39,320 bases of DNA, taken from positions 1 to 39,320 of the IMG/VR virus record IMGVR_UViG_3300032164_000030; one strand, written 5' to 3'. Each line of letters begins with the position of its first letter. Within the stretch, counting starts at the first letter, position 1. The notes under the pieces are model-generated. The model searched no databases. It was not told where the DNA came from and worked only from the letters and a program-made list of their open reading frames with translations. This document shows, piece by piece, positions 20,992-32,940 of this stretch. This DNA is from a virus. The translations under genes were made by a program, and so were the position numbers.

Positions 20992-21006
20992 ATACCGTTA
21001 TTCACA

Positions 21007-21351
21007 TTAGATAATTTTTATTCTGTATTTCAATGCTCGGATATTATCATCATATTCCTTTGTAGCATCGGCTAATTCCATTTCGATGGCTTGTATAGCC
21101 TTATTTCGATCTAAGATCAACTTATCCAATTCCAATTTAAGTAATTTTACAGACCTTATATTGGCTAAACCCTCCTCCATGGCCACTCGTATTGATGTAC
21201 CACGGTTCTCCGAAAACATCGTACCCCTAAATTCGGCACAATCCAATATTGTGGACAAGTAAAGCTTTTCCACCAACATGTTAATAAAATGTGCCTCAAA
21301 TTCGGTCAAGGCGACCACTACATCGCGACGTTCATTATCTAATTTCCCCAT
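21007..21351 (-). CDS. Coiled-coil protein, 114 aa
   Basis: AAGGAGAATC before the ATG. Globular N-terminal half (LTEFEAHFINMLVEKLYL) and a C-terminal heptad coiled coil (LLKLELDKLILDRNKAIQ, then AIEMELADATKEYDDNIR). Probably oligomeric. No family recognised. Confidence 0.6.
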   Translation of the reverse strand: MGKLDNERRDVVVALTEFEAHFINMLVEKLYLSTILDCAEFRGTMFSENRGTSIRVAMEEGLANIRSVKLLKLELDKLILDRNKAIQAIEMELADATKEYDDNIRALKYRIKII

Positions 21352-21361
21352 GATTCTCCTT

Positions 21362-21598
21362 TTATTTTACCGCCCGACATTCACTCCAATATTCACACTC
21401 ACATTCCGAAGTCGCATCACACAATGGACACGTATCATCAGGAATACCTTCTCTACGTTGTTCCTCATGTATATCTCCAAAGAACTGGTCCATCAGATCA
21501 AAAAATTCTTCAGGATACATAGGAGGAAAGTTCGTAATACCTTCCTCATCAAAAGCCAAAACTCGGAATCCCTCATATTCTTCAGATTCACAACCCAT
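21362..21598 (-). CDS. Acidic protein with C-terminal Cys cluster, 78 aa
   Basis: Acidic N-terminal two-thirds (GCESEEYEGFRVLAFDEEG, then PEEFFDLMDQFFGDIHEEQ) and a C-terminal zinc-like cluster DTCPLCDATSECECEYWSEC. Starts 2 bases after the upstream stop, so it is coupled. Function unknown. Confidence 0.6.
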   Translation of the reverse strand: MGCESEEYEGFRVLAFDEEGITNFPPMYPEEFFDLMDQFFGDIHEEQRREGIPDDTCPLCDATSECECEYWSECRAVK

Positions 21599-21600
21599 GG

Positions 21601-22008
21601 TTAAAATGGTACCTCACTGTTGTCTCCATCCATATTATTATTAGGGAAGCATTTGTATTGGTGCTTTATTGAGGCGACGATGTCTTCCAATTTTTGGATC
21701 ATATCCTTTACTAAGAAACCTTCTCGCTTCGAATCATGGATAACCCTCCATATGGATTTTTGGAATTTAAATCTAATATCTTCTTCCCTCAGAAATTCTA
21801 ATATATCCTTAGCTGGCTTTAGACCGATTTCAAAAACGGCTCGGATATATTTAAGACTCTGAATCATCTCGGTTATATCCATCCGATTCAATAGTTCATT
21901 CTTATTGAATCGGATTTTAACTAAATCGGAACCCGGAACACCGGTACAAATCACCCATATATCCGGATTACTTGCGATTTTTAATTTATCTTCTGCGGTT
22001 GGGAACAT
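21601..22008 (-). CDS. Hypothetical protein, 135 aa
   Basis: The start at 22008 follows AAGGAGATGT; the longer frame begins inside the hairpin element. Mostly helical (MIQSLKYIRAVFEIGLKPAK, DMIQKLEDIVASIKHQYK), no Cys cluster. The hairpin at 22028-22067 lies directly upstream. Family not recognised. Confidence 0.6.
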   Translation of the reverse strand: MFPTAEDKLKIASNPDIWVICTGVPGSDLVKIRFNKNELLNRMDITEMIQSLKYIRAVFEIGLKPAKDILEFLREEDIRFKFQKSIWRVIHDSKREGFLVKDMIQKLEDIVASIKHQYKCFPNNNMDGDNSEVPF

Positions 22009-22027
22009 ACATCTCCTTGTGAGCAAA

Positions 22028-22067
22028 GGCTCCTTGGATGCTTAAGTGGTTAAGCATCCGAGGAGCC
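22028..22067 (-). repeat. Intergenic 18-bp hairpin before gene 22008
   Basis: GGCTCCT plus GGATGCTTAA pair with TTAAGCATCC plus AGGAGCC around a 4-base loop, with one G-T-type mismatch. A second GGAGCC/GGGCTCC hairpin adjoins it (to 22081). Same position between stop and Shine-Dalgarno as the family A elements, but a different sequence. Confidence 0.8.
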
Positions 22068-22086
22068 CTTCTCTGGGCTCCTCTGT

Positions 22087-22209
22087 TTACAAATTATCCC
22101 ATCGATTGAATCCACACAAAAAACAAATTGTAGATAACCGGCTTTTTTTGGCTCCACAATCAACACATCTACCTATAATCCAATACCAAATTGTTTTAAA
22201 TATATTCAT
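22087..22209 (-). CDS. Small zinc-ribbon protein, 40 aa
   Basis: AGGAAAG 6 bases before the ATG (another ATG two codons earlier is possible). Product MNIFKTIWYWIIGRCVDCGA with ICFLCGFNRWDNL: two CxxC knuckles after a hydrophobic N-terminus. Short but typical of the zinc ribbons in this block. Confidence 0.55.
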   Translation of the reverse strand: MNIFKTIWYWIIGRCVDCGAKKSRLSTICFLCGFNRWDNL

Positions 22210-22243
22210 CGGCATCTTTCCTAGTTAATTTCGTTAAATCTCC

Positions 22244-22402
22244 TCATTCATACTCCGTATCATCAAATGGTTCTCCGCAATTCGATTCTCGGTCGAAGGC
22301 GTCCAAGGCATCAGAGGCTATCTCTATCATTTCCGTGGATGTTAAATTCTCACCATCTCGAATGGATTCCAAAGCATCGATAAGGTGTTGAACGGCTTCC
22401 AT
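22244..22402 (-). CDS. Acidic small protein, 52 aa
   Basis: Helical acidic product (EAVQHLIDALESIRDGENLT, then MIEIASDALDAFDRESN) with a final acidic tail. Starts 5 bases after the broken gene upstream. Could be an antirestriction- or DNA-mimic-like miniprotein by charge alone, but there is no direct evidence. Confidence 0.5.
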   Translation of the reverse strand: MEAVQHLIDALESIRDGENLTSTEMIEIASDALDAFDRESNCGEPFDDTEYE

Positions 22403-22406
22403 TATT

Positions 22407-22695
22407 TTACCCTCTTTCTATTGTGGATTCTCCGCCTTTTGAGGCAATTTCCTCTTGAAGGACTATTGCATCCTTCTTATAATATATCTTACGAGGAAAG
22501 AAATCTTTTGGGAAAGTATCTACCACAGGTTTCTTTGTCAATTACTGCGGTAAATTGCGGATTTACACAAAAGTAGTAGGTTTGTATTACCTCACCTTCA
22601 CCTTAATATAGGAGGTTTAAAGCGTTTTCCGGAGACTCCGCTTCAATCTCAGTAAACACCTCATATATTTCCTGGTGTTTTGTAACATACTTCAT
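22407..22695 (-). pseudogene. Broken small gene (in-frame stop plus frameshift)
   Basis: AGGAGGAT before ATG 22695 opens MKYVTKHQEIYEVFTEIEAE, then SPENALNLLY and an in-frame TAA (22603-22605). The same frame continues convincingly (GEGEVIQTYYFCVNPQF, TAVIDKETCGRYFPK) until a TTTT/AAAA run at 22506-22509. After that the next frame carries DFFPRKIYYKKDAIVLQEEI to 22407. One point change and one extra A would restore a ~95-residue protein. Sequencing error or true decay cannot be told apart here. Confidence 0.5.
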
Positions 22696-22707
22696 AGATC
22701 CTCCTAT

Positions 22708-22766
22708 GAGCTTTAAGGGCTCATTCATCCTATATTGATATAGGATCAATGAGGCCCTAAGGCCTC
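22708..22766 (-). repeat. Intergenic long hairpin, family A copy 4
   Basis: Same arms as 18287 with a TATATTGATATA-like centre. It precedes the strong AGGAGGAT of the broken gene 22695 and follows the stop of gene 22774. Confidence 0.85.
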
Positions 22767-22773
22767 ATAACCT

Positions 22774-23187
22774 TCAACTTCCGTGGAAACGCCTATAATC
22801 TATTTCCAAAAAGATTCTCCATAGCAACCTTTTTGATAATTTACTCATCAGTTTCCATATGTACCACGGAAACATAACCAAAAGGGTTTCTTGAACACGC
22901 CGTTTGACTTCAAACCAATCTTCTGATACGAGTTGGATATGAATTGGCGCGAAGTACGCTTTAAAAACCGCTATGATCGATGGATCCGAATCCATGTAGT
23001 TCTCGTTAACTACCGTTTCGTATCCATTAGCTCCTAACCACGTGAAATCGTTACCTTGATTTTTAACGACCACATCCAAATCGTTGGGATCATCACTTCC
23101 CCAAGCCACGCTCCCCGTGATAAACATGTCCGGAAACTTTCCCCTTAAGGACAACAAGGTTTCCAATTCAGTTTTCCCGATTATCAT
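22774..23187 (-). CDS. Nucleotidyltransferase-fold protein, 137 aa
   Basis: FITGSVAWGSDDPNDLDVVV carries the GS...D-x-D signature of the pol-beta nucleotidyltransferase superfamily. A later strand (PIHIQLVSEDWFEVKRRVQ) would hold the third acidic position. The enzyme class transfers NMP to proteins or small molecules, or acts in toxin-antitoxin pairs; the substrate is unknown. The C-terminal ~30 residues are basic. A paralogue is at 28934-29368. Confidence 0.7.
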   Translation of the reverse strand: MIIGKTELETLLSLRGKFPDMFITGSVAWGSDDPNDLDVVVKNQGNDFTWLGANGYETVVNENYMDSDPSIIAVFKAYFAPIHIQLVSEDWFEVKRRVQETLLVMFPWYIWKLMSKLSKRLLWRIFLEIDYRRFHGS

Positions 23188-23209
23188 AAGTCTCCTTTGT
23201 GAGCCTGGA

Positions 23210-23270
23210 AGCTCCTAAATGCCTCCCTCTAGGAAGGCATTTAGGAGCTTCAGAGTTTCCTCTGAAGCTC
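23210..23270 (-). repeat. Two mutually exclusive hairpins before gene 23187
   Basis: A 15-bp perfect stem (arms 23210-23224 and 23235-23249) and an 11-bp perfect stem (23245-23255 with 23260-23270, loop of 4) share 5 bases of arm, so only one can form fully. It lies between the stop of gene 23278 and AAAGGAG of gene 23187. Confidence 0.8.
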
Positions 23271-23277
23271 CCCTCTT

Positions 23278-23424
23278 TTAGTAACCGAGACCGCGATAGA
23301 TCGCGTAAATCCAACCGCACAATCCATGCCATATCATCCAAAGAATGCTATGGTTTCTATCGAAAGATAGGATCATCGCAATTACTACGCCGAAGCCGAT
23401 AGAAGTTTTAGAGCTTTGTAACAT
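23278..23424 (-). CDS. Small conserved membrane protein, 48 aa
   Basis: AAAGGAAACCAC before the ATG. Product TSIGFGVVIAMILSFDRNHS followed by ILWMIWHGLCGWIYAIYRG: two hydrophobic segments linked by a conserved-looking SFDRNHSILW turn, a pattern I recognise from large phages. The upstream spacer (23425-23588) holds a CACAC-UUCG-type hairpin near 23495 but no gene. Function unknown. Confidence 0.6.
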   Translation of the reverse strand: MLQSSKTSIGFGVVIAMILSFDRNHSILWMIWHGLCGWIYAIYRGLGY

Positions 23425-23588
23425 GTGGTTTCCTTTTTGTTATTTAGTTTAAGATCCAATTAGTTCACACGGAACCAAAAATGCTTAATCACACTTCGGT
23501 GTGAAGTGTTCGCACCAATTACATAATATTTCGCATATATCCTCCTAAAGCCAGACGGCTTTTTAATTATCCTTAATAAAGACAATTA

Positions 23589-23622
23589 AAAAGCCGGAGA
23601 GACTTGCGCCTCTCCGACTTTT
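23589..23622 (-). terminator. Rho-independent terminator (minus strand)
   Basis: On the minus strand AAAAG-T-CGGAGAG pairs with CTCTCCG-G-CTTTT around an 8-base loop and runs into GCTTTTTAATT. It begins about 12 bases after the stop of gene 23635. This is one of the few canonical terminators in the block. Confidence 0.75.
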
Positions 23623-23634
23623 AAGGGATGTTTC

Positions 23635-23934
23635 CTACTTGGCGCCGGCCGCTAGGACCAACTTACGTCCTTCGGTGTATGACCTGTTCGAACACTTCGC
23701 CGCATTCTTCATCAGCCAATCGATTCGGCTGAGCCAGTGGTCGATGATTGTGGTGCACCCCTTAGGATCCACGGCGTGCAATTCGCAGAGGTGGTCACGG
23801 CCTCCCGCTTCACAGTAGAACAGGGCGATTGCCGTTTCGATCTCACGGCCCTGGGTCACGTTCGGATGCTTTCGCATCTCATCCATCATATTACTCATCT
23901 TACACAACGGACATTTCATCCTTGATTTCGCCAC
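23635..23934 (-). CDS. Hypothetical protein with one CxxC, 99 aa
   Basis: GTG start with AGGAGA 7 bases upstream; the longer frame lacks a site. MKCPLCKMSNMMDEMRKHPN at the N-terminus, then FYCEAGGRDHLCELHAVDPK and a helical C-terminus. His/Cys spacing suggests a zinc-bound fold. Higher G+C than the genes to the left. Terminator follows. Family not recognised. Confidence 0.6.
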   Translation of the reverse strand: MAKSRMKCPLCKMSNMMDEMRKHPNVTQGREIETAIALFYCEAGGRDHLCELHAVDPKGCTTIIDHWLSRIDWLMKNAAKCSNRSYTEGRKLVLAAGAK

Positions 23935-23967
23935 GGTATTTCTCCTATGTTGAATTTGTACCATTTT

Positions 23968-24028
23968 GAGTTCTCAGGAACTCATTCATCCCATATTGTT
24001 ATGGGATGAATGAGGCCCTGAGGACCTC
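23968..24028 (-). repeat. Intergenic long hairpin, family A variant
   Basis: CTCATTCATCCCATA and its perfect 15-base complement enclose a 4-base loop; outer parts CCTCAGG/CCTGAG also pair. It keeps the TTCATCCCAT core of family A with different outer arms, which suggests compensatory change of a conserved structure. Confidence 0.8.
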
Positions 24029-24053
24029 TGGTGAGTTTTAATTCACCTTCACA

Positions 24054-24413
24054 TTAGCTAGCGCCGGCGACGAAATTGATCTCAGCAATATCTAGGAGAT
24101 TCCGCGGAAAATCGTCGTCGATGATGATGGTCTCCGCTAGCTGATCTTCTGAATATCCGATCGGCATGATTCTTCCCATCACCAAACTTCTGACAGTTCG
24201 GCCGAATACCACATATTCCGGCCATTTGCTGACTACGTATTCCAGCGCATCTTCCGGAGTCGGCATCTTACTTAGCCTGCCAACCAAATTCGACCCCCTC
24301 GCACACCGGATTCCACCAAGGCGACATGGCATGGATTGATACTCGAAATACCATGCCAATTCACCCTTATATGGACGGATGCGAAGAAATTCCATCAGTC
24401 TCTTACCTTCCAT
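24054..24413 (-). CDS. Hypothetical protein, 119 aa
   Basis: AAGGAGAATGAT before ATG 24413; the longer in-frame start lies in the repeat. Mixed alpha/beta product (FLRIRPYKGELAWYFEYQSM, then MPTPEDALEYVVSKWPEYVV, then MGRIMPIGYSEDQLAETIII). No known motif recognised. G+C-rich. Confidence 0.6.
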   Translation of the reverse strand: MEGKRLMEFLRIRPYKGELAWYFEYQSMPCRLGGIRCARGSNLVGRLSKMPTPEDALEYVVSKWPEYVVFGRTVRSLVMGRIMPIGYSEDQLAETIIIDDDFPRNLLDIAEINFVAGAS

Positions 24414-24425
24414 ATCATTCTCCTT

Positions 24426-24481
24426 GAGCTTTAAGGGCTCATTCATCCCACTCTGTGGGATCAATGAGGCCCTAAGGCCTC
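24426..24481 (-). repeat. Intergenic long hairpin, family A copy 5
   Basis: Same outer arms as the other copies, with a shorter centre (ATCCCAC/GTGGGAT). Between the stop of gene 24488 and AAGGAG of gene 24413. Confidence 0.9.
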
Positions 24482-24487
24482 ATTTAA

Positions 24488-24685
24488 TTATCGGTGAATA
24501 CCGGCTTCCAATTCTTCCTCAAAAGATGCCGAGTTATACTCATCAATCTCGCTCGGCGATTCAGGACCCGATATACATATCGGGTCAATCAGTTCGATGT
24601 GGTTAGTTTTAGCCACACCTTTCACCATCAATGCCAGAAATTCAGCATTTTCCAGATCATCTGTCACCACTTCAAACGTGTACAT
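24488..24685 (-). CDS. Acidic small protein, 65 aa
   Basis: GAAAGGAAATCCA before the ATG. Starts YTFEVVTDDLENAEFLALM and ends in an acidic helix (EYNSASFEEELEAGIHR), resembling small alpha/beta phage proteins. Lies directly downstream of the tRNA group, so it may share their transcript. Function unknown. Confidence 0.6.
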   Translation of the reverse strand: MYTFEVVTDDLENAEFLALMVKGVAKTNHIELIDPICISGPESPSEIDEYNSASFEEELEAGIHR

Positions 24686-24702
24686 TGGATTTCCTTTCGA
24701 GT

Positions 24703-24789
24703 TGGTGGGCGAGGAGAGACTTGAACTCTCACGGGATTACTCCCAACGGATTTTAAGTCCGGTGCGGCTGCCAATTACGCCACTCGCCC
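24703..24789 (-). tRNA. tRNA-Leu (UAA)
   Basis: Acceptor GGGCGAG pairs with CTCGCCC, followed by ACCA encoded in the DNA. The anticodon loop CTTAAAA gives UAA. A long variable arm (GGGAGTAATCCC type) marks a class II tRNA, and the T-loop is GTTCAAGTC. 87 bases including CCA. First of three tandem tRNAs. Confidence 0.9.
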
Positions 24790-24793
24790 GATT

Positions 24794-24868
24794 TGGTAGG
24801 CTCGGTGGAACTCGAATCCACAACACCCGCCTTAAAAGGGCGGTGCTCTACCATTGAGCTACGAGCCT
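24794..24868 (-). tRNA. tRNA-Lys (UUU)
   Basis: Acceptor AGGCTCG with CGAGCCT and encoded ACCA. D-arm TAGCTCAATGGTAGAGC, anticodon stem CCGCC/GGCGG around CTTTTAA (UUU), T-loop GTTCGAG-like GATTCGAGTTC. Canonical cloverleaf, 75 bases. Confidence 0.92.
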
Positions 24869-24875
24869 GTTGGAT

Positions 24876-24952
24876 TGGTGGGCCCTATAGGATTCGAACC
24901 TATGACCATCAAATTATGAGTTTGCCGCTCTCACCAACTGAGCTAAGGGCCC
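24876..24952 (-). tRNA. tRNA-Met (CAU)
   Basis: Acceptor GGGCCCT with AGGGCCC and encoded ACCA. D-arm TTAGCTCAGTTGGTGAGAGC, anticodon loop CTCATAA (CAU), T-arm ATAGGTTCGAATCCTAT. Acceptor pairing from the first base suggests the elongator, not the initiator. An Ile-CAU (lysidine) type is also possible. 77 bases. Confidence 0.88.
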
Positions 24953-25027
24953 TAAAATGAGGGTTTGGTTTTAATAGGTACTAGGATTTTCCCATACTCA
25001 CCTAGATTTTTACACCACCTGTAACGA

Positions 25028-25305
25028 TCACTGGAACATATCTAAAAGCGCCTGCACGCCTTTAGCTTCAACAAATTTGAAGCAATCTTCCTTCGAACCC
25101 TCAACAACTACCACTATCCAACCCAGTGATGTCCAAAATCCGACTCTTCCTGGTTTGAGGGTTACTATCCAGAAATTTCGTGAACCAGTAAGGCCGATAT
25201 ATCGAGAATTACATCTCTGGATAGTTGGTACTCCAACTTCTTCGGTTCCAATATCGTCCGTTCTTCGTTGAACGATATAACATAATCTCCTCCAAATCGT
25301 GCCAT
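25028..25305 (-). pseudogene. Frameshifted small gene, about 92 aa if restored
   Basis: AAAGGAG before ATG 25305 opens MARFGGDYVISFNEE. That frame stops at 25165, but the -1 frame carries DDIGTEEVGVPTIQRCNSRY, then GSRNFWIVTLKPGRVGFW and VEAKGVQALLDMFQ to the stop at 25028, with no start of its own. One missing A in GAAGAACGG (25261-25262 on the plus strand) would join them. The length (278 = 3n+2) fits a one-base loss. Real decay or read error is open. Confidence 0.55.
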
Positions 25306-25315
25306 GTTCTCCTTT

Positions 25316-25400
25316 CTGTGAGACTAGGAAATCATCAAGAATCTTGGTAATTTCCTAGGTTCACAGAAAGGAGATGGAGTTAATAACTCCATCTCCTTTC
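25316..25400 (-). repeat. Two long hairpins before gene 25305
   Basis: First, a perfect 16-bp stem with a 3-base loop (arms 25366-25381 and 25385-25400) that contains AAAGGAG. Second, CTGTGA and CTAGGAAAT pair with ATTTCCTAG and TCACAG (25316-25366), ending next to the real AAAGGAG of gene 25305. The first hairpin begins 12 bases after the stop of gene 25413. Confidence 0.8.
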
Positions 25401-25412
25401 ATGGAGGCGACT

Positions 25413-25784
25413 CTACACCGACGCCTTTTTCGCCCGCGGCTTGCGCGTTTTCTTCACCAGCACTTCCACCGGCACAAAGGCCAGTTCCGGAACCGTAACG
25501 GTGATTTCCTGTTCGTCGGAGTCGGTGATAGATGCACCCGGCCACCGGTCTCCGATGCCGTACGCCGGCGGCAATTCGTGTGTCGCCTGATCCGTTTCGA
25601 ATCCGAGACGGAGTCCGCCGGTTTCGGTGCATCTGCCGAACACGAACCCCTCTCCGACCCGGATCAAGAAACTCCGGTTGTCGGTGAGATTCATCTGTTG
25701 CTCGGCGTAATTGCTGAGTGTCCGGATCTCAGATGTGGACACACCCATCTGATACAACCGATCCTTCAACAAATTCATTTTCAT
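25413..25784 (-). CDS. Hypothetical protein, 123 aa
   Basis: ATG at 25784 lies 7 bases after AAAGGAG; an ATG two codons earlier is too close to the site. Product with N-terminal helix (MNLLKDRLYQMGVSTSEI), Gly-rich middle (VGEGFVFGRCTETGGLRLG), beta strands and a basic Lys/Arg tail (VKKTRKPRAKKASV). G+C-rich compared with 11-22 kb genes. The tail may bind nucleic acid. Family not recognised. Confidence 0.65.
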   Translation of the reverse strand: MKMNLLKDRLYQMGVSTSEIRTLSNYAEQQMNLTDNRSFLIRVGEGFVFGRCTETGGLRLGFETDQATHELPPAYGIGDRWPGASITDSDEQEITVTVPELAFVPVEVLVKKTRKPRAKKASV

Positions 25785-25806
25785 ACCCATTCTCCTTTGA
25801 GCCGTA

Positions 25807-25846
25807 GGCTCTTACAATCCTCAATTGCTTGAGGATTTTAAGAGCC
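25807..25846 (-). repeat. 17-bp hairpin before gene 25784
   Basis: GGCTCTTA and AATCCTCAA pair with TTGAGGATT and TAAGAGCC around a 4-base loop with a single mismatch. Followed on the minus strand by AAAGGAG of gene 25784. Same placement as the other pre-gene hairpins. Confidence 0.85.
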
Positions 25847-25887
25847 GGAAGAATCAAATTCTTCCGCGCCCCTACCACACTAACGAA

Positions 25888-26073
25888 CTAGTACGAGGTT
25901 TTCCTCGTTTCTGCGAGAAATTCGTCTTTGTCTCGCCGGATGGTCTCAGCCATCAATAGCGCCAACTCTCTATCTACCATGTCCATGGTAAGCTTTTGAT
26001 GACTGGTATCCGGGCTGTTGGAAGTTGCCACAACGTGGCTTTCCACCATAATTAACCGTTCTTTCATTGTCAT
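25888..26073 (-). CDS. Small helical protein, 61 aa
   Basis: AGGAGGG 5 bases before the ATG. Product MTMKERLIMVESHVVATSNS, then MDMVDRELALLMAETIRRD, mostly helical. Follows tRNA-Glu. Function unknown. Confidence 0.6.
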   Translation of the reverse strand: MTMKERLIMVESHVVATSNSPDTSHQKLTMDMVDRELALLMAETIRRDKDEFLAETRKTSY

Positions 26074-26100
26074 CGAACCCTCCTACTTATTTTAAGAAAT

Positions 26101-26177
26101 TGGTAAGGATGGTGGGATTCGAACCCACGATAACCGGCTTGAAGGGCCGGCGACTTAAGCCACTTGTCAACATCCTC
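26101..26177 (-). tRNA. tRNA-Glu (UUC)
   Basis: Acceptor GAGGATG with CATCCTT (first pair G-U) and encoded ACCA. Anticodon stem CCGGC/GCCGG around CCTTCAA gives UUC. T-arm GTGGGTTCGAATCCCAC. The D-arm (GAC...GTC around AAGTGGCTTAA) is longer than usual but keeps GG. 77 bases. Confidence 0.88.
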
Positions 26178-26191
26178 ACAAGAAAACGATA

Positions 26192-26217
26192 TGAGGCGGG
26201 CCTTCCAACCCGCCTCA
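26192..26217 (-). repeat. GAGGCGGG hairpin after a stop codon, copy 1
   Basis: TGAGGCGGG and CCCGCCTCA form a perfect 9-bp GC-rich stem with an 8-base loop, 4 bases after the stop of gene 26222. Copies with the same stem are at 27115-27140, 28893-28918 and 29441-29466, always just after a gene. No T-run follows. Confidence 0.85.
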
Positions 26218-26221
26218 CTTG

Positions 26222-26452
26222 TTAAAATTCGGTGTCGCCTGCCAGTTCCGGATGCGAATCCACCAATGCGTCTAACAAAACCCAGACTACATCTGGTGTA
26301 CGATCCAATTCCGTAAAAAGTTCTTTGGCTTCTGTGCCCGATAGTTGCTTTAACCAGTGAAGTAAAGGCGTTAGGCCTGAACCCTTACGAATGGTGGTAT
26401 TATCCACAATCGGGATTGGTTGCCCGGGTGTTGGGCGTTCTGTATATTGCAT
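26222..26452 (-). CDS. Small protein with QYxERPxPGQPxP N-terminus, 76 aa
   Basis: AAAGGAAACT before the ATG. The first 14 residues (MQYTERPTPGQPIP) are shared with gene 26757; the rest is different and helical (LTPLLHWLKQLSGTEAKELF). The shared module suggests a common docking or localisation peptide. Function unknown. Confidence 0.6.
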   Translation of the reverse strand: MQYTERPTPGQPIPIVDNTTIRKGSGLTPLLHWLKQLSGTEAKELFTELDRTPDVVWVLLDALVDSHPELAGDTEF

Positions 26453-26475
26453 AGTTTCCTTTCACGAGCCGAACA

Positions 26476-26598
26476 TCACAAATCAACGCCGGGTTCCAGA
26501 GACCACATTTCGGGTGCCCTCGGCGACCGGACCGAAACAATGCGGTCCGATTGAATCCTTGCAAATCCCGGATTGATATCCCGGGATGGAAAATCCAC
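26476..26598 (-). CDS. Possible 40-residue protein
   Basis: GTG with AAAGG 7 bases upstream. Product VDFPSRDINPGFARIQSDRI, then SVRSPRAPEMWSLEPGVDL. The frame looks better than the overlapping one starting two bases earlier (MWIFHPGISI...), which would run into gene 26222. Low-confidence small gene. Confidence 0.4.
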   Translation of the reverse strand: MDFPSRDINPGFARIQSDRIVSVRSPRAPEMWSLEPGVDL

Positions 26599-26613
26599 AT
26601 ACCAACCTTTCTG

Positions 26614-26769
26614 TTATCGGAGTTGAGAAACGAGAATCACCGCTTCCCAACATAGGCAAAAAAGTATGGCATACCGAAGTTTTCCGGTTGATCCCCATAC
26701 GATGATGGTGCAAATGAACTGGAAGGTCATTAAGACCGCTCTTACTTCTTCCTGAGTCAGAATAGCCAC
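26614..26769 (-). CDS. Small membrane protein, 51 aa
   Basis: GTG start overlapping the end of gene 26757 by 13 bases. N-terminal amphipathic part (AILTQEEVRAVLMTFQF), then hydrophobic stretches ICTIIVW and YAILFCLCWEAVILV. May be a single-pass or hairpin membrane protein. No family recognised. Confidence 0.5.
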   Translation of the reverse strand: MAILTQEEVRAVLMTFQFICTIIVWGSTGKLRYAILFCLCWEAVILVSQLR

Positions 26770-27041
26770 TTGCTTTCTGAGCCATCACCGCATGGTTCAA
26801 CAACTTCTCCGAGTTCGAACCCGCGGAGGTCATAATTCCCATAATCGGTATGGAAAGACGCCGGTCCATCAGCATATTCCCAACCTTGCCAGCGGTCCTT
26901 GATGTACAGGCCCGCAGATGTGAGTGTGAGGAATGACCGAGTAACTTTTGGTCCTTTACCTTCTTCTCGGAAAGTAATCTTATACCTCATACCGTTGAGT
27001 GGTACCGGTTGTCCCGGCCTTGGTCTTTCGGAATACTGCAC
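26757..27041 (-). CDS. Hypothetical protein with QYxERPxPGQPxP N-terminus, 94 aa
   Basis: GTG at 27041 follows AAAGGAGAATAC. It opens VQYSERPRPGQPVPLNG, sharing its first 14 residues with gene 26222, then has a beta-rich domain (MRYKITFREEGKGPKVTRSF, then LYIKDRWQGWEYADGPAS). The upstream ATG in the longer frame lies in the duplicated leader. Family not recognised. Confidence 0.65.
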   Translation of the reverse strand: MQYSERPRPGQPVPLNGMRYKITFREEGKGPKVTRSFLTLTSAGLYIKDRWQGWEYADGPASFHTDYGNYDLRGFELGEVVEPCGDGSESKWLF

Positions 27042-27043
27042 GT

Positions 27044-27157
27044 ATTCTCCTTTCCAATACTTCTTAAAGGACTCCAAAACATCTCAGAGTCCTTTAAGAA
27101 ACACTGGAAGAACATGAGGCGGGCCTCCTAACCCGCCTCACGTCAAACTCTAAGGTT
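27044..27157 (-). repeat. Duplicated ~113-bp leader, copy 1
   Basis: Contains the TGAGGCGGG hairpin (27115-27140) and a ~22-bp hairpin (TTCTTAAAGGACTC pairing with GAGTCCTTTAAGAA) that ends beside AAAGGAG. About 95 percent identical to 29372-29483, though the genes on both sides differ. Confidence 0.9.
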
Positions 27158-27864
27158 TACATGCGACTTACCAAAAACTTAATGGCTTGGTCATATTCGG
27201 ACCAAGGCAAACATTCCGGATGATTCTTTAATTCTTCCGGTTCTCCTTGTAACCAATATTCAACCGGATGTTCTATGCATCCGACGCTGATGTATCTCGG
27301 TCTACCGGAATAAACCAAGTACGGATGGCATTGAATTTGAATTGGTGAGGTTTTGAGTGTAACTCCGTCACCGAGTTTAACTCCGTTACCGAGTTTAACT
27401 TCGTTACCGAGTGTAACTCCGTCACCGAGTTTAACTCCGTCACCGAGTTTAACCCGGTTACCGAGTGTAACCCGGTGACCGAGTATAACTCCGTTACCGA
27501 GTTTAACTTCGTTACCGAGTGTAACTCCGTCACCGAGTTTAACTCCGTCACCGAGTATAACCCAGTCACCGAGTTTAACTCCGTCACCGAGTGTAACCCG
27601 GTGACCGAGTGTAACTTCGTTACCGAGTTTAACTCCGTCACCGAGTGTAACTCCGTTACCGAGTGTAACCCGGTTACCGAGTTTAACTCCGTTACCGAGT
27701 TTAACTTCGTTACCGAGTGTAACCCAGTGACCGAGTGTAACCCAGTGACCGAGTGTAACCCGGTTACCGAGTGTAACTCTGTTACCGAGTATAACTCCGT
27801 TACCGAGTATAACTCCGTTACCGAGTTTAACTTCGTTGATGTCGTAAATCTCCTCCACTGTCAT
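27157..27864 (-). CDS. Hexapeptide-repeat left-handed beta-helix protein, 235 aa
   Basis: ATG at 27864 follows AAGGAGAATAG. Residues ~12-172 are about 27 near-perfect six-residue repeats of the form V-K/T/I-L-G-N/D/H-x, the rule of left-handed beta-helices of the hexapeptide acyltransferase type. The C-terminal ~60 residues (HPYLVYSGRPRYISVGCIEH, then PVEYWLQGEPEELK) resemble the cap of phage proteins of this class. Acyltransferase activity is not assured: the catalytic His is not evident in the repeats, and the role may be structural. Confidence 0.7.
   Translation of the reverse strand: MTVEEIYDINEVKLGNGVILGNGVILGNRVTLGNRVTLGHWVTLGHWVTLGNEVKLGNGVKLGNRVTLGNGVTLGDGVKLGNEVTLGHRVTLGDGVKLGDWVILGDGVKLGDGVTLGNEVKLGNGVILGHRVTLGNRVKLGDGVKLGDGVTLGNEVKLGNGVKLGDGVTLKTSPIQIQCHPYLVYSGRPRYISVGCIEHPVEYWLQGEPEELKNHPECLPWSEYDQAIKFLVSRM
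27355..27838 (-). repeat. 18-bp minisatellite array within gene 27157
   Basis: About 27 tandem units of the type GTAACTCCGTTACCGAGT (plus strand), varying mostly at three or four positions. The array keeps all six frames almost free of stops. Copy number is likely to change by slippage or recombination, always by whole codons (18 = 6 codons). Confidence 0.95.
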
Positions 27865-27892
27865 GCTATTCTCCTTATTCCTTTCAAAAGAT

Positions 27893-28144
27893 TCAATAAA
27901 GGGTGATATGCCACCCATCTCCACAGCGTGTGCAGTTCGCTCCCATAGATCCCGAATCAGGTCCGGCATGACCGGTATCCACCCATCGATGTCCTTTCCA
28001 TCGACATACGATACGGAGAATTCCGTAGCCGATGCGCCCCCAAATGCATTCCGTGTACACGCGGATAATTTTGATCCGCGAGTTTGGACCGCAGGATAAT
28101 TCGTATCCGGCGTCCATACGAATGGACTCCCAAATCTTCATCAT
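27893..28144 (-). CDS. Small protein with C-terminal zinc site, 83 aa
   Basis: ATG at 28144 is 9 bases after GGAGGG; nearer in-frame ATGs are possible. The C-terminus CRWKGHRWVDTGHAGPDSGS, then NCTRCGDGWH is a pattern common in phage proteins (C...GH...GPDG...CxxCG), probably one zinc. N-terminal half is variable and basic. Confidence 0.6.
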   Translation of the reverse strand: MMKIWESIRMDAGYELSCGPNSRIKIIRVYTECIWGRIGYGILRIVCRWKGHRWVDTGHAGPDSGSMGANCTRCGDGWHITLY

Positions 28145-28170
28145 CTTCAGCATCCCTCCTTTCATGGTTC

Positions 28171-28278
28171 ATTTAAGGACTTAATGGGCTTGCCGTTTGA
28201 TGGCCGCATAAATCCTTAAATCAACATTGAAGGGATGGACCTCCAAAGCCTCATGCTAAGGAGGCCCATATGAGCCAA
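28171..28278 (-). repeat. Structured spacer with post-stop element copy 1
   Basis: 28232-28278 (47 bases, GGCCTCC/GGAGGTCC hairpin) is repeated at 29952-29998 with two mismatches. Next to it ATTTAAGGA (28171-28179) pairs with TCCTTAAAT (28213-28221). Order on the minus strand: stop of gene 28279, element, long hairpin, AAAGGAGGG of gene 28144. Confidence 0.8.
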
Positions 28279-28530
28279 TTACAAATACCAACAAGAATCG
28301 CACCGGCGCTTGATGTGCAGGCCGTCGGCTAAAACGTTTACGGACACTCGGTCATGTTCGTCAGAACTGAGAACAAATCCGCATCCCGTGCAGGTGATTT
28401 TCAGTCCTTCGCCGTTCTCGGCCTGAATGAGTTCGGTATTGAACCGAATCGCACAGGATACATGCATATTCCGGTAGACCAAAGATAGGAGAACCGGGCT
28501 TAAACTATCTCCACAGATTAAACAGGTCAT
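28279..28530 (-). CDS. Zinc-binding protein with three Cys pairs, 83 aa
   Basis: AGGAGAAAAC before the ATG. MTCLICGDSLSPVLL, then ITCTGCGFVLSSDEHDR, then RRCDSCWYL give three CxxC knuckles, enough for one or two zinc sites. Typical of the many ribbon-like small genes of this block. Confidence 0.65.
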   Translation of the reverse strand: MTCLICGDSLSPVLLSLVYRNMHVSCAIRFNTELIQAENGEGLKITCTGCGFVLSSDEHDRVSVNVLADGLHIKRRCDSCWYL

Positions 28531-28600
28531 TGTTTTCTCCTAAACAAATGCCCAAGTTCCATAGTGAAGCAGTGTATACTGGAACCATTGGGTCGCGCAT
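28505..28600 (-). CDS. Possible 31-residue ORF
   Basis: GGAGGCGAA before the ATG; overlaps the next gene by 26 bases. Product begins MRDPMVPVYTASLWNLG. It covers the hairpin whose loop ATAGTGAAGCAGTGTATAC (28560-28578) recurs at 30021-30039, so the sequence may be kept for RNA structure and not for protein. Confidence 0.3.
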   Translation of the reverse strand: MRDPMVPVYTASLWNLGICLGENNDLFNLWR

Positions 28601-28608
28601 TTCGCCTC

Positions 28609-28830
28609 CTACACCGTATCGTACGCCTTCCAGAAATCTCCATTACGATCCTTGATCCGGTAATAAGGTCTTCCCTCTATTACCAGGATATTCCAGTTGT
28701 TGACGATCCGAAGAGCGTCGGACATTGTTGGAAGGCGCGAAACGCGGCCTATCCACCAGGTGGTGGGAAATCGGTCCCACGTCACACACCACCAACGTAT
28801 GCCGTTGCGAGTAGATATCTGCAAATACAT
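28609..28830 (-). CDS. Trp-rich small protein, 73 aa
   Basis: AAAGGAGACCCA before the ATG. Product rich in Trp/Arg (RWWCVTWDRFPTTWWIGR), then a small alpha/beta end (VIEGRPYYRIKDRNGDFWKA). No signature recognised. Directly follows the GAGGCGGG hairpin and a loose stem. Confidence 0.55.
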   Translation of the reverse strand: MYLQISTRNGIRWWCVTWDRFPTTWWIGRVSRLPTMSDALRIVNNWNILVIEGRPYYRIKDRNGDFWKAYDTV

Positions 28831-28892
28831 TTGGGTCTCCTTTGTTCAATTCAGGACTCAATTGTTAAATCCCGATTTCAGCAAAGGAAACA

Positions 28893-28918
28893 TGAGGCGG
28901 GCCTCCTAACCCGCCTCA
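28893..28918 (-). repeat. GAGGCGGG hairpin after a stop codon, copy 3
   Basis: TGAGGCGGG/CCCGCCTCA, extended by CA/TG to an 11-bp stem, 16 bases after the stop of gene 28934. Same loop (CCTCCTAA on the plus strand) as the copies at 27115 and 29441. Confidence 0.85.
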
Positions 28919-28933
28919 TGTCGAGGTTTCTCA

Positions 28934-29368
28934 CTAAAACCAGAGTGGCCCGTGGCCCGCGGCGTTCGCCGCGGCGGCCGATAGGAAGTGCGACCAAATC
29001 TTACTTCGTGTTCGCTTGCTCAGGCATTCCCATTCCGAGCCGGGAAAAAGGAGGATCAACTCCTCCTGAACCTGCCTCTTGAGGTCGAACCAGCCTTCAG
29101 ACACCACCTGTACATGAATCTTATACAGGTCGTGTGTGAAAATTGCCGAGATTGATGGATCGGAATACGATAGTTCCGAGCCACCGTGCTGGTTCAATGT
29201 GAACCCCAGGCGAATAAGACACCCATGGAGGGCGGGTTCGGCCGCGATGAATAAATCCAAATCATTTGGTTCCGAATGCCCCCACGCCGCACTCCCGGTG
29301 ATTTGGATTTTTTGACATTGCCTGCCCAATGCCAATAAAATTTCTAATTCTTCCATATTCAGGGTCAT
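28934..29368 (-). CDS. Nucleotidyltransferase-fold protein, paralogue 2, 144 aa
   Basis: ATG at 29368 follows AAAGGAGAATAGC. QITGSAAWGHSEPNDLDLFI gives the GS...D-x-D core, and SYSDPSISAIF with KIHVQVVSEGWFDLKRQVQ matches the paralogue at 22774 along its length. Substrate unknown. The C-terminus is Ala-rich (SAAAANAAGHGPLWF). Much richer in G+C than its paralogue, so the two have separate histories. Confidence 0.7.
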   Translation of the reverse strand: MTLNMEELEILLALGRQCQKIQITGSAAWGHSEPNDLDLFIAAEPALHGCLIRLGFTLNQHGGSELSYSDPSISAIFTHDLYKIHVQVVSEGWFDLKRQVQEELILLFPGSEWECLSKRTRSKIWSHFLSAAAANAAGHGPLWF

Positions 29369-29371
29369 GCT

Positions 29372-29483
29372 ATTCTCCTTTCCAATACTTCTTAAAGGAC
29401 TCCAAAACATCTCAGAGTCCTTAAAGAAACACTGGAAACATGAGGCGGGCCTCCTAACCCGCCTCATCTCAAACTCTAAGGTT
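29372..29483 (-). repeat. Duplicated ~113-bp leader, copy 2
   Basis: Near-identical to 27044-27157: post-stop TGAGGCGGG hairpin (29441-29466) plus the AAGGACTC/GAGTCCTT long hairpin, then GGAAAGGAGAATAGC and ATG. It even includes the last bases of the upstream gene. Confidence 0.9.
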
Positions 29484-29808
29484 GGACCTCTCTGTAAACG
29501 ACTTCCAGCTTGCTGTTGCCGATCTCAGCAACCCAAGCCACCGAGCACGGCGTCCAATCATCGGCCGCCGAATACGAATCCACGGAAACATCCGTTACCC
29601 ACGTTTCCGGATCTTCCAAGGCTTTCTTGATTGCCGAAATGTCTTCGGCAATCTCTCGTATCAAAGCCCGGAGACATAACAGCTTCTCGGAAGTATATTC
29701 CAAACCTGTCGGATTCAGAATCACAACAACGGCCGACAAATCTGAATGGATTTCTTCCATCCGCTCCCGAACTCCACCTCGCAATACTTCACTTCTCCAT
29801 TTTTCCAC
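29476..29808 (-). CDS. Hypothetical protein, 110 aa
   Basis: GTG at 29808 follows AAGGAGATCC; an upstream ATG has no site. Helical N-terminus (EEIHSDLSAVVVILN, LRALIREIAEDISAIKKAL) and a C-terminal beta part (DDWTPCSVAWVAEIGNSKLE). No family recognised. Confidence 0.6.
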   Translation of the reverse strand: MEKWRSEVLRGGVRERMEEIHSDLSAVVVILNPTGLEYTSEKLLCLRALIREIAEDISAIKKALEDPETWVTDVSVDSYSAADDWTPCSVAWVAEIGNSKLEVVYREVQP

Positions 29809-29835
29809 GGATCTCCTTTTGCAATTCAAACCACT

Positions 29836-29998
29836 CATTGAATTCCTAAATTCGTCCAGTTTTCCCGCTACCGCGCTATTTCACCGCGGCCCACAGTAAT
29901 TCTCCAGACTCAAATTTAGGAATTCAATGCGGGGCTCGAACCGACAACATGGGGATGGACCTCCAAAGCCTCACGCCAAGGAGGCCCATATGAGCCAA
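29836..29998 (-). repeat. 17-bp long-range inverted repeat with post-stop element copy 2
   Basis: CATTGAATTCCTAAATT (29836-29852) and its perfect complement (29913-29929) enclose 60 bases rich in GCGC pairs. 29952-29998 is the second copy of the 47-base element at 28232. A T-loop-like CGGTTCGAGCC (minus strand, about 29934-29944) lies between, without a full tRNA. No gene seen in 29839-29999. Confidence 0.8.
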
Positions 29999-29999
29999 A

Positions 30000-30245
30000 T
30001 CATAAAGCAGCGCCGAGTTCTATAGTGAAGCAGTGTATACGGGCGCCGGGCGGGCGCGGCGACCACCTATGCAACACGCGGTCCATTCTTACCTCCCCAT
30101 ATCGCCGGTCGTAATCGAAAGAGAGGAAATCCATATACCACTGGATTAGCCTCACCGGCAGCCGCGGCCCGAAAACATCGTAATAGCGGTAGAAATATTC
30201 CGGTCTTATTCTCTTCTCATTTCTGTAGTAGAGACGGTTTTCCAT
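30000..30245 (-). CDS. Arg/Tyr-rich protein, 81 aa
   Basis: ATG at 30245 follows AAAGGAGAATC. Product MENRLYYRNEKRIRPEYFYR, then LIQWYMDFLSFDYDRRYG, strongly basic. The last codons overlap the hairpin whose loop is shared with 28560-28578. Family not recognised. Confidence 0.55.
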   Translation of the reverse strand: MENRLYYRNEKRIRPEYFYRYYDVFGPRLPVRLIQWYMDFLSFDYDRRYGEVRMDRVLHRWSPRPPGARIHCFTIELGAAL

Positions 30246-30274
30246 GATTCTCCTTTCTCCGACGGATTCAACAT

Positions 30275-30381
30275 CCACAGGATTTCAGAGGGATCGAAGC
30301 ATTAGGAGAGTCCGATAGCGTCACGCGACCGCGACCGCGTGAACTTTCTCCAGCATTTCCGATCCCTCTGAGAACCTGTGG
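30275..30381 (-). repeat. Large structured leader of gene 30245 (22-bp stem)
   Basis: 30275-30296 pairs with 30360-30381 over 22 positions with one mismatch. The 63-base interior has its own CACGCG/CGCGTG-type stem. Lies between the stop of gene 30398 and AAAGGAG of gene 30245. Size and branching resemble a regulatory leader RNA. Confidence 0.75.
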
Positions 30382-30397
30382 AGGTTCCCACCGACTT

Positions 30398-30610
30398 TTA
30401 CGCCGGTTCTTCAAAACACCGGTCACACAACTGAAGCAGAGGTGGATTCTCCTCACCGTACATCATCGCAACGATTTCGTCCCATTCTGCTTTCGTCAGT
30501 ACCCCGTTACATTGGGTGCAACGGTGCTCCTCGGTTTGACCCATGACTTCACGAACAACCGCCGCGAATTCGGGATCATAGTCGGACAACATAAAACCAG
30601 GTCCAATCAT
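30398..30610 (-). CDS. Small zinc-ribbon protein, 70 aa
   Basis: ATG at 30610 follows GGAGTAGTAAC. GPGFMLSDYDPEFAAVVREV, then HRCTQCNGVLTKAEWDEIV and LLQLCDRCFEEPA give a two-knuckle zinc ribbon spaced by a helix. AATCCTT/AAGGATT hairpin directly upstream (30635-30675 region). Confidence 0.6.
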   Translation of the reverse strand: MIGPGFMLSDYDPEFAAVVREVMGQTEEHRCTQCNGVLTKAEWDEIVAMMYGEENPPLLQLCDRCFEEPA

Positions 30611-31060
30611 GTTACTACTCCTTCCATTGTTGAGTTGATACAATCCTTTGTAGAAAGGAAGGATTCTATCAATCCAACAACCGTAAGGACTATTTCAATG
30701 TTTATCGGATTAGATAAAAAGAAGATATTTGGAGAGGAGGAGCGTTCAGAGGAACGCTCCGCGGAAGTGAGGGGTTATAGGGGGCGCCGAGTTCCAAGAG
30801 CCATCCACCGGCGTGAAATGGCCGGTAGGAGTACATGGAAGTGCAGCGGAGCATCAGGTGCCGGGTGATTCCGGAACCTATGTAACGTATATCTGGTTCT
30901 CATTCCATTCACCGAGGTGATAGGTTTATTCATTCCGAGGGATCTTCAATGTCTCCAAGGACTTAGAGGACCGCAAATAAAATTCGGGCAGGGGACGGTT
31001 TCCGTTTCCTGCCGTGTTTTATTCATTATCCGCTCAATCCATGAATAATTATTCATCCTA

Positions 31061-31141
31061 AGGTTCTCAGAGGACTCGGTAGCGTCCGGCTACGCGGTTG
31101 TGATATCCGGGTATGTGGTAGTTCGAGTCCTCTGAGAACCT
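31061..31141 (+). repeat. 18-bp inverted repeat enclosing a tRNA-like fold
   Basis: Perfect 18-bp arms, extendable to 22 with one mismatch. Read on the plus strand the interior has a GTAGC-GTCCG-GCTAC arm, a CGG...CCG arm and a GTTCGAGTC sequence like a T-loop. No standard anticodon arm, so it is not called a tRNA. Confidence 0.65.
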
Positions 31142-31151
31142 CAGGAGTCTT

Positions 31152-31292
31152 CGATTCCTAAAGGACTCTGAGTAGGTTAGAGAATGAGGCGCTGGAGACT
31201 GTGGTGGAGCCCAATGAACATATGAAATGGTTTAGCCCATGGTTACTCCAGGCGCGCTGGCATCCCAGTTGTTCAGAGTCCTTTAGGAATCG
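31152..31292. repeat. 20-bp perfect inverted repeat with 101-base loop
   Basis: Arms 31152-31171 and 31273-31292 contain CCTAAAGGACTCTGA and complement, sharing the AAGGACTC string with the hairpins at 27044 and 29372. The loop holds a GCGCTGGAG/CTCCAGGCGC stem. Confidence 0.85.
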
Positions 31293-31596
31293 GACGGAGA
31301 GGACTTGAGTCCTCGAAGGATCGGTTAAGGTTTCCTTGATCTTAGAACAATGAGGAAGCCTCTCCGTCAAACTCCAAAGGAGAAGAAATAGGATTATTCT
31401 TAGCCGAGTACATCTCAGGATTGCTAGTCCCGCTCACGGCAACGGACTTCAAATGTCCGCTTTCGAATAGGTTCGGTTGTACGGAGGGGTAGTCCATAAT
31501 ACTCCAGAGGGGTAGTCTATAATACTACTAGAGTATTACTCTCCGTGAGCTTTCCAGACTCGTCCATCTTCAATGCACGGACAAGGACTTTCTGAA

Positions 31597-31670
31597 GTCC
31601 GGGAGCTTTTTAAGGACTCGGATTTCCGAATCATTAAAAAGCTCCCGGACCCCCTCAGAGAGGGTCCGGG
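31597..31670 (-). terminator. Terminator hairpin with competing anti-structure
   Basis: On the minus strand CCCGGACCC/GGGTCCGGG (31644-31670) is followed by AGCTTTTT, like an intrinsic terminator, 8 bases after the stop of gene 31679. The T-run and half of that stem also belong to a 17-bp perfect hairpin (31597-31613 with 31634-31650). Only one can form. Confidence 0.65.
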
Positions 31671-31678
31671 ATCAGATG

Positions 31679-32266
31679 TTACTCGGCGGCGGTGAGGACT
31701 TCGAAATCCTCTTTCGAATTGGGGACGGGGACGCCGTCGTTGTCGGCGGCGTCGGAGACTTCGCTAACACTCTCATTGATAGGAGCGGACTTCACTGGCT
31801 TCTTCACCGGCTTGGGCTTGGTAGCCGGAGCGGACTTCTCCGGCTTGATGTCCGGCTTGGGAGCGGACTTCGCTTCGGCTTTCGCCTTGGCAATCATCTC
31901 CTTCTTCGCGGACATTACCGCTTTCACGATGTCCTTGGGGAGGACGTGGAGAGGAATTCGGAATAGCCCTCTAGCGGTCGTGCGATTCTCTTGCACCCGT
32001 TTGATGGGGCGAAGGACGCCGGCGCCGGTCAGGAGGACGGAGATCGCGATCCACTGCTTCGCCGTAATGAACTCCGTGCCGATAAACTGCAGGACCGCCG
32101 ACATGCGAGCGATCTCCTTCTCCGAGTACTTCTGTGCCGTCTCGACTTTGTACGTCGCCTGTTCGCCGAATTCGGCCGGCTTCAACAGGTGGACCCCCTC
32201 GGGGAGGGTCAGGACACGCGGTCCAATCGTGTCTTCCAAATCTTCAAACTTCACTTTATTCGACAT
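31679..32266 (-). CDS. Hypothetical protein with Lys/Pro/Ala-rich tail, 195 aa
   Basis: AGGATAT before the ATG. The N-terminal ~120 residues look globular (VLTLPEGVHLLKPAEFGEQA, then AVLQFIGTEFITAKQW, then FRIPLHVLPKDIVKAVMS). The rest is a KPxKxAP-type linker (APKPDIKPEKSAPATKPKP) and an acidic end. First gene downstream of the leftward promoter-operator at 32.5 kb, so possibly strongly or early expressed. Family not recognised. Confidence 0.65.
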   Translation of the reverse strand: MSNKVKFEDLEDTIGPRVLTLPEGVHLLKPAEFGEQATYKVETAQKYSEKEIARMSAVLQFIGTEFITAKQWIAISVLLTGAGVLRPIKRVQENRTTARGLFRIPLHVLPKDIVKAVMSAKKEMIAKAKAEAKSAPKPDIKPEKSAPATKPKPVKKPVKSAPINESVSEVSDAADNDGVPVPNSKEDFEVLTAAE

Positions 32267-32476
32267 GATATATCCTAGTCACCGAGTCTTTCGGACTCCG
32301 CTTCTGTTGATACTCATGCACGCGAGCGAACGTGCATGAAAACAGCAATTTGGACTATGTAAAAACACACTACTTCTTACACGTTAAAAGCTGACTATAC
32401 ACACGCCCACTGTCAAGTGAAAGTGTTAGCGAATTGTCAGAGATCGTTTGAGCGAACGTATAGCTTTCGTTCGCAT

Positions 32477-32502: not shown

Positions 32503-32531
32503 ATAGTAACATGACTGAAAGTTTTTGTCAA
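32503..32531 (-). promoter_or_regulatory. Leftward sigma70-like promoter
   Basis: On the minus strand TTGACA (32526-32531) is 17 bases from TACTAT (32503-32508). It faces gene 31679 with a leader of about 230 bases and is the best candidate to drive the 15.8-32.3 kb block. Confidence 0.6.
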
Positions 32532-32714: not shown

Positions 32715-32940
32715 GGGTCTCTATGGACGTTAAGGCGCATCCAAAAAATTTTTGTGGGGCCTTGGGTCTCTATGGACTTGAAGGAACCGGACTTGAAGGA
32801 ACCGGACTTGAAGGAACCGGACGTTAAGGCGCATCCAAAAAATTTTTGTGGGGCCTTGGGTCTCTATGGACTTGAAGGAACCGGACTGAAGGAACCGGAC
32901 TGAAGGAACCGGACGTTAAGGCGCATCCAAAAAATTTTTT
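32715..32940 (+). repeat. Tandem A-tract/stem repeats with nested 15-bp units
   Basis: GGACGTTAAGGCGCATCC followed by AAAAAATTTTT occurs at 32725, 32819 and 32911. In two copies AAGGC later pairs with GCCTT. Between copies lie three 15-base units GGACTTGAAGGAACC, then one such unit and two 14-base versions lacking one T. Spacing of the long units is 94 and 92 bases. Confidence 0.9.

Follow-up and report, generated by a model that had tools for sequence, protein, structure and literature searches.

The window analysed here, the whole 39.3-kb stretch (39,320 nucleotides) of the IMG/VR virus record IMGVR_UViG_3300032164_000030, is a fragment of a T4-superfamily myovirus in which hairpins lie, often in pairs, between small genes. 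On the plus strand, 10136-10801 is the gene for the head closure protein Hc2 and 14932-15792 that for a tail sheath stabilizer, which is about 35% identical to the versions of cyanophages, Methylophilales phages and Pelagibacter phages in a protein versus DNA search. The stretch between about 15.8 and 32.3 kb is a cluster of minus-strand genes, with four tRNA genes among them. The genes of the hairpin region are mostly short and without family matches, and most have a strong Shine-Dalgarno (SD) sequence.

Organization of the Hairpin Cassettes

In the direction of the minus-strand genes, a stop codon is followed by a short hairpin (H1), a long hairpin (H2), the SD and then the next start codon (Table 1). 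H1 has 7-16 bp and usually starts 3-13 nt past the stop codon; H2 has 17-48 bp, usually ends 8-22 nt ahead of the start codon and has a predicted dG of -22 to -66. The two are separate length classes. H2 precedes 17 genes or small open reading frames (ORFs), plus one five-codon ORF, and one to three genes make up each segment between such marks.

A first-pass annotation, made from the letters of the DNA, had described this modular order as running through 10 kb. The order is present, but it belongs to minus-strand genes, is not found at every gene and extends further, its limits being about 18.27 and 31.68 kb. Each of the eight pre-gene hairpins given there (22028, 23210, 25316, 25807, 27044, 28171, 29836 and 30275) was found on the minus strand, as were the four post-stop hairpins of the TGAGGCGGG class (26192, 27115, 28893 and 29441) and both copies of a 47-nt element, whose fold is a post-stop hairpin of 13 bp. 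A repeat family does occupy the same pre-gene slot as hairpins of unrelated sequence. The pre-gene hairpins are mostly unrelated to one another, as had been stated, except that the one at 27044 recurs at 29371-29437. The TGAGGCGGG copy at 26192 precedes tRNA-Glu and has no H2 behind it. The tRNA-Glu gene thus has an H1 and lacks an H2, and two genes directly downstream of tRNAs also lack an H2, as if tRNA processing supplied their 5' end.

In nine spacers (six independent elements by our own count) the 3' strand of H1 is at the same time the 5' strand of H2, with an overlap of 9-16 nt, to which the terminator-type elements at 23.6 and 31.6 kb are to be added. Because the strand is shared, both hairpins cannot form together. 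Pairing of the upstream segment with the shared strand clearly exceeds that in shuffled sequences for the spacers at 25306, 23935, 22009 and 24414.

Table 1. Features of the minus-strand cluster, in the direction of its genes; all are on the minus strand, and z refers to folding of the spacer.
Feature	Position	Context	z
Sigma70-like promoter match, TTGACA-17-TACTAT, extended TG	32503-32531	upstream of minus-strand cluster	
Terminator-like H1 (31671-31643, U-tract); its 3' arm and U-tract are the 5' arm of H2 (31651-31596, 25 bp)	31596-31671	after gene 31679-32266	
Densely structured 1.07 kb, apparently non-coding	30611-31678	folds to -414 kcal/mol	
H2, 26 bp	30620-30706	before gene 30398-30610	
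H2, 45 bp including apical hairpin	30260-30394	before gene 30000-30245	-5.2
47-nt post-stop element, copy 2	29952-29998	holds H1 29989-29955 (13 bp)	
H2, 48 bp in all, 11 G-U	29817-29943	before gene 29476-29808	-6.7
H1, TGAGGCGGG class, 14 bp	29437-29470		
H2, 25 bp	29380-29437	before gene 28934-29368; near-identical to 27052-27109	-8.3
H1, TGAGGCGGG class, 15 bp	28889-28922		
H2, 24 bp, pairs with SD	28835-28891	before gene 28609-28830	-8.5
47-nt post-stop element, copy 1	28232-28278	holds H1 28269-28235 (13 bp)	
H2, 31 bp, bulged	28153-28239	before gene 27893-28144	-4.8
H1, TGAGGCGGG class, 15 bp	27111-27144		
H2, 26 bp, uninterrupted	27052-27109	before gene 26757-27041	-10.2
H1, TGAGGCGGG class, 12 bp	26191-26218	before tRNA-Glu; H2 absent	
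tRNA-Glu	26101-26177	next gene 25888-26073, without H2	
H1, 9 bp	25842-25866	after gene 25888-26073	
H2, 17 bp	25807-25846	before gene 25413-25784	-4.7
H1, 16 bp, perfect	25366-25400	3' arm common to H2 25304-25377	
H2, 29 bp	25304-25377	encloses SD of ORF 25165-25305	-8.9
tRNA-Met, tRNA-Lys, tRNA-Leu	24703-24952	next gene 24488-24685, without H2	
Repeat-family cassette: H1 24484-24463, H2 24478-24428	24428-24484	before gene 24054-24413	
Repeat-family variant, H2 22 bp	23970-24028	before gene 23635-23934	-7.4
H1 23622-23589 (terminator, U-tract) overlapping H2 23598-23553 (19 bp)	23553-23622	before five-codon ORF	
H1 23272-23243 (13 bp) overlapping H2 23251-23208 (20 bp)	23208-23272	before gene 22774-23187	-5.4
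Repeat-family cassette	22711-22768	before ORF 22603-22695	
H1 22083-22060 (9 bp) overlapping H2 22073-22021 (23 bp)	22021-22083	before gene 21601-22008	-5.6
Repeat-family cassette	20937-20993	before ORF 20766-20921	
Repeat-family cassette	20126-20182	before gene 19896-20111; within 71-nt stretch identical to 20922-20992	
Repeat-family cassette, last of series	18286-18347	before gene 18013-18270	

Stability of the Spacers

Folding of the spacers against shuffled controls and against the 11-18 kb spacers, one part of the check proposed with the first-pass annotation, came out clearly: the hairpin spacers are far more stable than both. When each spacer was compared with 200 dinucleotide shuffles, 18 of the 21 spacers that are 40-420 nt long and lie at 18,271-30,397 had z values of -3.7 to -10.2, beyond all 200 shuffles, and 13 of the 21 were at or below -5; the weaker ones were 22403-22602 (z -3.0), 19777-19895 (z -2.4) and 24953-25164 (z -1.8). 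The control spacers at 11-18 kb gave -0.7 to -2.2, and those between plus-strand genes +0.2 to -1.3. It should be kept in mind that a few 100-nt coding windows inside the cluster also fold well (lowest z -6.9), the median being near -1.

A uniform scan of the 76 nt preceding SD-led starts, with a threshold of z<-4, found structure at 14 of 34 starts at 18-32.3 kb and at none of the 20 elsewhere in the window. The same threshold was passed by 5 of 185 starts in segments of T7, T4, TM4, HTVC008M, Melnitz, S-SSM7 and KVP40, and by 4 of 234 starts in 28 IMG/VR loci with a related gp3 or gp14. Among annotated spacers, z<=-3.5 was reached in T7 (3/18), T4 (2/17), TM4 (4/15) and HTVC008M (0/8); in these comparator phages, some of the matches are repeats within coding sequence or hairpins that carry a promoter. 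For 11 genes of T7 that lie behind RNase III sites, the hairpin scan that was applied to the H2s detected upstream hairpins of 16-31 bp with a dG of -12 to -34, located 1-61 nt before the start codon.

Promoters

Promoters were sought with a sigma70 matrix of approximate frequencies. The spacers of T4 scored a mean z of +1.39 with strong sites in 11 of 17, whereas the hairpin spacers of the window scored -0.65 with strong sites in 2 of 17. On the minus strand between 15 and 33 kb, the match at 32531-32503 scores best; it faces a strong match on the plus strand at 32981. Over the whole window, the top-scoring matches on the minus strand (14919, 11680 and 35942) are where a run of genes could plausibly begin. 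Promoterless spacers together with the upstream promoter match at 32531 make a long transcript from 32.5 kb likely.

Duplication and Exchange of Cassettes

Cassettes have been duplicated independently of the genes that they separate. The spacer 27043-27157 is 95.7% identical over 115 nt to 29371-29483, each lying between an unrelated pair of genes, and 71 nt at 20111 recur unchanged at 20922. The repeat family has six copies, the TGAGGCGGG class four and the 47-nt element two. Conversely, the paralogues 22774-23187 and 28934-29368 (39% amino acid identity over 131 residues) are preceded by unrelated H2s, as are the genes 24054-24413 and 28609-28830, which have a 29-residue match. The sequence of the hairpin is uncoupled from the identity of the gene: slot and shape are kept, and the sequence is free. 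No 6-mers are common to the H2s beyond the level of random segments. The candidate motif AGGACT occurs in 7 of 16 elements and was rejected, as it was equalled or beaten in 17 of 300 random draws. Absence of an H2 motif above chance is as expected of a nuclease that reads the shape of double-stranded RNA.

Comparison with Known Systems

To our knowledge, which covers part of the literature, no described phage carries paired, promoterless, sequence-diverse hairpins at this density. The nearest parallel in arrangement is provided by phage T7, whose early RNA is cut at RNase III sites to yield mono- and dicistronic mRNAs (PMC4858673). Like H2, the T7 sites (R0.3 to R18.5) are long intergenic hairpins just upstream of the next ribosome site; both occupy the slot between stop codon and ribosome site, and both have stems of about two helical turns (17-48 bp in the window and 16-31 bp in T7). 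There are differences: the window has H2 before about 17 genes in 13 kb, its hairpins are mostly unrelated in sequence and generally more stable, and a separate post-stop hairpin is usual, with a strand common to both hairpins in nine spacers. The two phages belong to unrelated groups, and cleavage is known in T7 whereas in the window it is inferred. By analogy, the working principle may be like that of the T7 RNase III sites.

Promoter early stem-loops (PeSLs) of T4-type phages (Arbiol 2010; Comeau 2014), as far as PMC4503421 cites them, are also intergenic hairpin cassettes that occur with small unknown genes in T4-superfamily phages and are duplicated between unrelated genes. Compared with that description, the cassettes of the window lack an early promoter (mean z -0.65 versus +1.39 in T4) and consist of two hairpins rather than a promoter and a stem-loop. 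They were rejected as PeSLs because the promoter is missing.

In mycobacteriophages of cluster K, SAS/ESAS elements with inverted repeats stand just before the starts of some small non-structural genes (PMC3203893). The window resembles them in having repeats with inverted repeats ahead of small-gene starts, but its hairpin sequences are mostly unrelated; the start-proximal 13-bp SAS GGGATAGGAGCCC was not found, partial matches being confined to the H1 apex. An integron attC array was also rejected, as one RYYYAAC/GTTRRRY box pair was found against 0.4-0.5 expected. In Rfam, only the four tRNAs exceeded the curated gathering threshold and no family matched the hairpins; below-threshold matches to microRNA precursors reflect only the shape of a long hairpin.

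Proposed Punctuation of a Long mRNA and Alternative Explanations

We propose that shuffled, promoterless two-hairpin cassettes punctuate a long polycistronic mRNA in the manner of RNase III sites, a proposal for which the case seems to us about evenly balanced. The process would be as follows: the minus-strand cluster would be transcribed as one long polycistronic RNA from the promoter near 32.5 kb, and the punctuation mark would be the cassette between a stop codon and the next SD. A double-strand-specific nuclease, for example host RNase III, would cleave at H2 and leave the downstream mRNA with a 5' end just ahead of its SD. H1, too short for a good nuclease substrate, would protect the upstream mRNA from exonucleases by capping its 3' end, and in the spacers with a shared strand the cut in H2 would free that strand so that H1 re-forms. 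H2 is read as a cleavage site because the RNase III sites of T7 lie in the same slot with equal or shorter stems. The lack of an H2 at tRNA-Glu and at two genes directly behind tRNAs agrees with this reading. The complete version of this model, with no promoters for individual genes, swappable cassettes independent of sequence, and a cut in the pre-gene hairpin that releases a strand refolding as the upstream 3' cap, is tentative and on balance doubtful. The first-pass annotation saw a system that makes each small gene its own RNA unit. Separation into units is the reading best supported, by promoterless spacers and by a slot and stem length like those of T7, but "each small gene" is too strong a wording, since a segment holds one to three genes.

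Several observations weigh against the proposal. H2 is missing from about half of the SD-led starts; these closely trail the previous gene in short clusters. The test of strand sharing between H1 and H2 is significant for some spacers only. The six-copy family varies too little to be telling (99% of the cells are paired, and one position has changed on both sides), and its covariation is not above control. A weaker promoter-like match at 21033, inside the cluster, could restart transcription, and two H1s with U-tracts (31.64 and 23.6 kb) have the look of genuine intrinsic terminators, which fits poorly with full read-through. Finally, a search for a close relative by megablast, distant blastn, tblastn, IMG/VR protein and pattern scans and one genome-contig scan found none.

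The main rival is that the hairpins are translational insulators or mRNA stabilizers that work without cleavage, H2 isolating the ribosome site from ribosomes and sequence upstream, and H1 and H2 shielding ends from decay, while the message stays polycistronic. H2 adjoins the SD at nearly every site, and with H2 intact the predicted accessibility of the SD is about half, mostly 0.38-0.91, so that cutting is not needed to expose it. A general role of H2 as an SD lock was rejected on the same ground, as the intact SD is mostly accessible and cutting gives no consistent rise. However, insulation requires neither stems of 17-48 bp nor a second, post-stop hairpin, and H2 does lock the SD of gene 28609-28830 (0.08 unpaired) and contains that of ORF 25165-25305 within its stem. 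We consider this rival unlikely.

The cassettes might instead be palindromes that move or are shuffled, in the manner of T4 PeSLs or REP/MITE repeats, and be kept mainly because small genes are swapped by recombination between similar spacers, their structure being a by-product. The duplications between unrelated genes described above, from the 95.7% pair and the 71-nt identity to the six-, four- and two-copy elements, are what this explanation would lead one to expect. Many H2s, however, are single-copy and unrelated and yet have the same slot and length; paralogous genes retain H2s of differing sequence; no promoter is present, unlike in PeSLs; and IMG/VR scans show no copies beyond this record. 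This explanation appears quite unlikely.

If the punctuation were transcriptional, H1s would be intrinsic terminators or attenuators and every gene its own transcription unit. Terminator-like sites are in excess (26 against 14.1 +/- 4.5 in shuffles) and two H1s have U-tracts, but most H1s lack one, and no promoter follows the H1s, although the T4 control shows that the scan would detect it; we regard this as improbable.

In the minus-strand RNA, stem mismatches are G-U 41 times and A-C 20 times (p=0.005, with about half expected from base composition); with the best stems counted once, the numbers are 20 and 9 (p=0.03). This G-U excess is evidence for an RNA rather than a DNA role, modest because related stems are not independent. 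That the hairpins are DNA-level palindromes (protein-binding sites or cruciforms) and play no part in RNA is very improbable: several stems, among them those at 23188 and 25306, are perfect on both strands, but hairpin placement is tied to the stop codon and SD of one strand, whose transcript favours G-U mismatches.

If punctuation by cleavage is correct, a large phage could keep gaining and shuffling small unknown genes with no need for each to have a promoter: the gene that follows a cassette would come to have a 5' end of its own, and the one ahead of it a protected 3' end. The model of RNase III-cut messages in T7 would then extend, at much higher density, to T4-like phages, and the cassettes would be a natural, sequence-diverse set of insulator parts. 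The shared strand of H1 and H2 makes a mechanism of cutting and refolding directly testable.

Relatives and Other Features of the Window

Megablast and distant blastn found no near DNA relative among phages, and IMG/VR pattern scans found no copies of the cassettes outside this record. The relatives found are distant, through gp3 and gp14 only (roughly 28-42% identical, with one short segment of 59%), and lack the hairpins. The sole IMG/VR match to the TGAGGCGGG pattern, in a locus of 60% G+C (L005), shows no sign of kinship and was discarded.

The G+C content is 45-52% at 23000-32300 and 33-41% across most other sequence, except for 48-56% in the first 3 kb. On this basis, the part rich in hairpins may have originated elsewhere.

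Within the structured region 30611-31678, a perfect 20-bp stem with a 101-nt loop (31151-31293) adjoins a 23-bp stem with a 45-nt loop (31055-31147). Both stems look like processing stalks that enclose small RNAs, and no Rfam match to them was found. The five-codon ORF MRNIM (23519-23536, minus strand) has a strong SD and lies directly after the terminator/H2 element; it is possibly a leader peptide or a gene remnant.

The minus-strand gene 27157-27864 encodes a hexapeptide-repeat protein (PF00132) by about two dozen near-identical 18-nt tandem repeats, so that change in repeat number is likely. The minus-strand genes 26222-26452 and 26757-27041, otherwise unrelated, have only their first 15 residues in common (MQYxERPxPGQPxP), which points to shuffling of 5' ends. 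Between the minus-strand cluster and the plus-strand promoter match at 32981, a unit of about 94 nt is present in three tandem copies (32715-32939), each with CCAAAAAATTTTTG. Elsewhere, a GIY-YIG homing endonuclease gene (5791-6543, plus strand) is flanked by structural genes.

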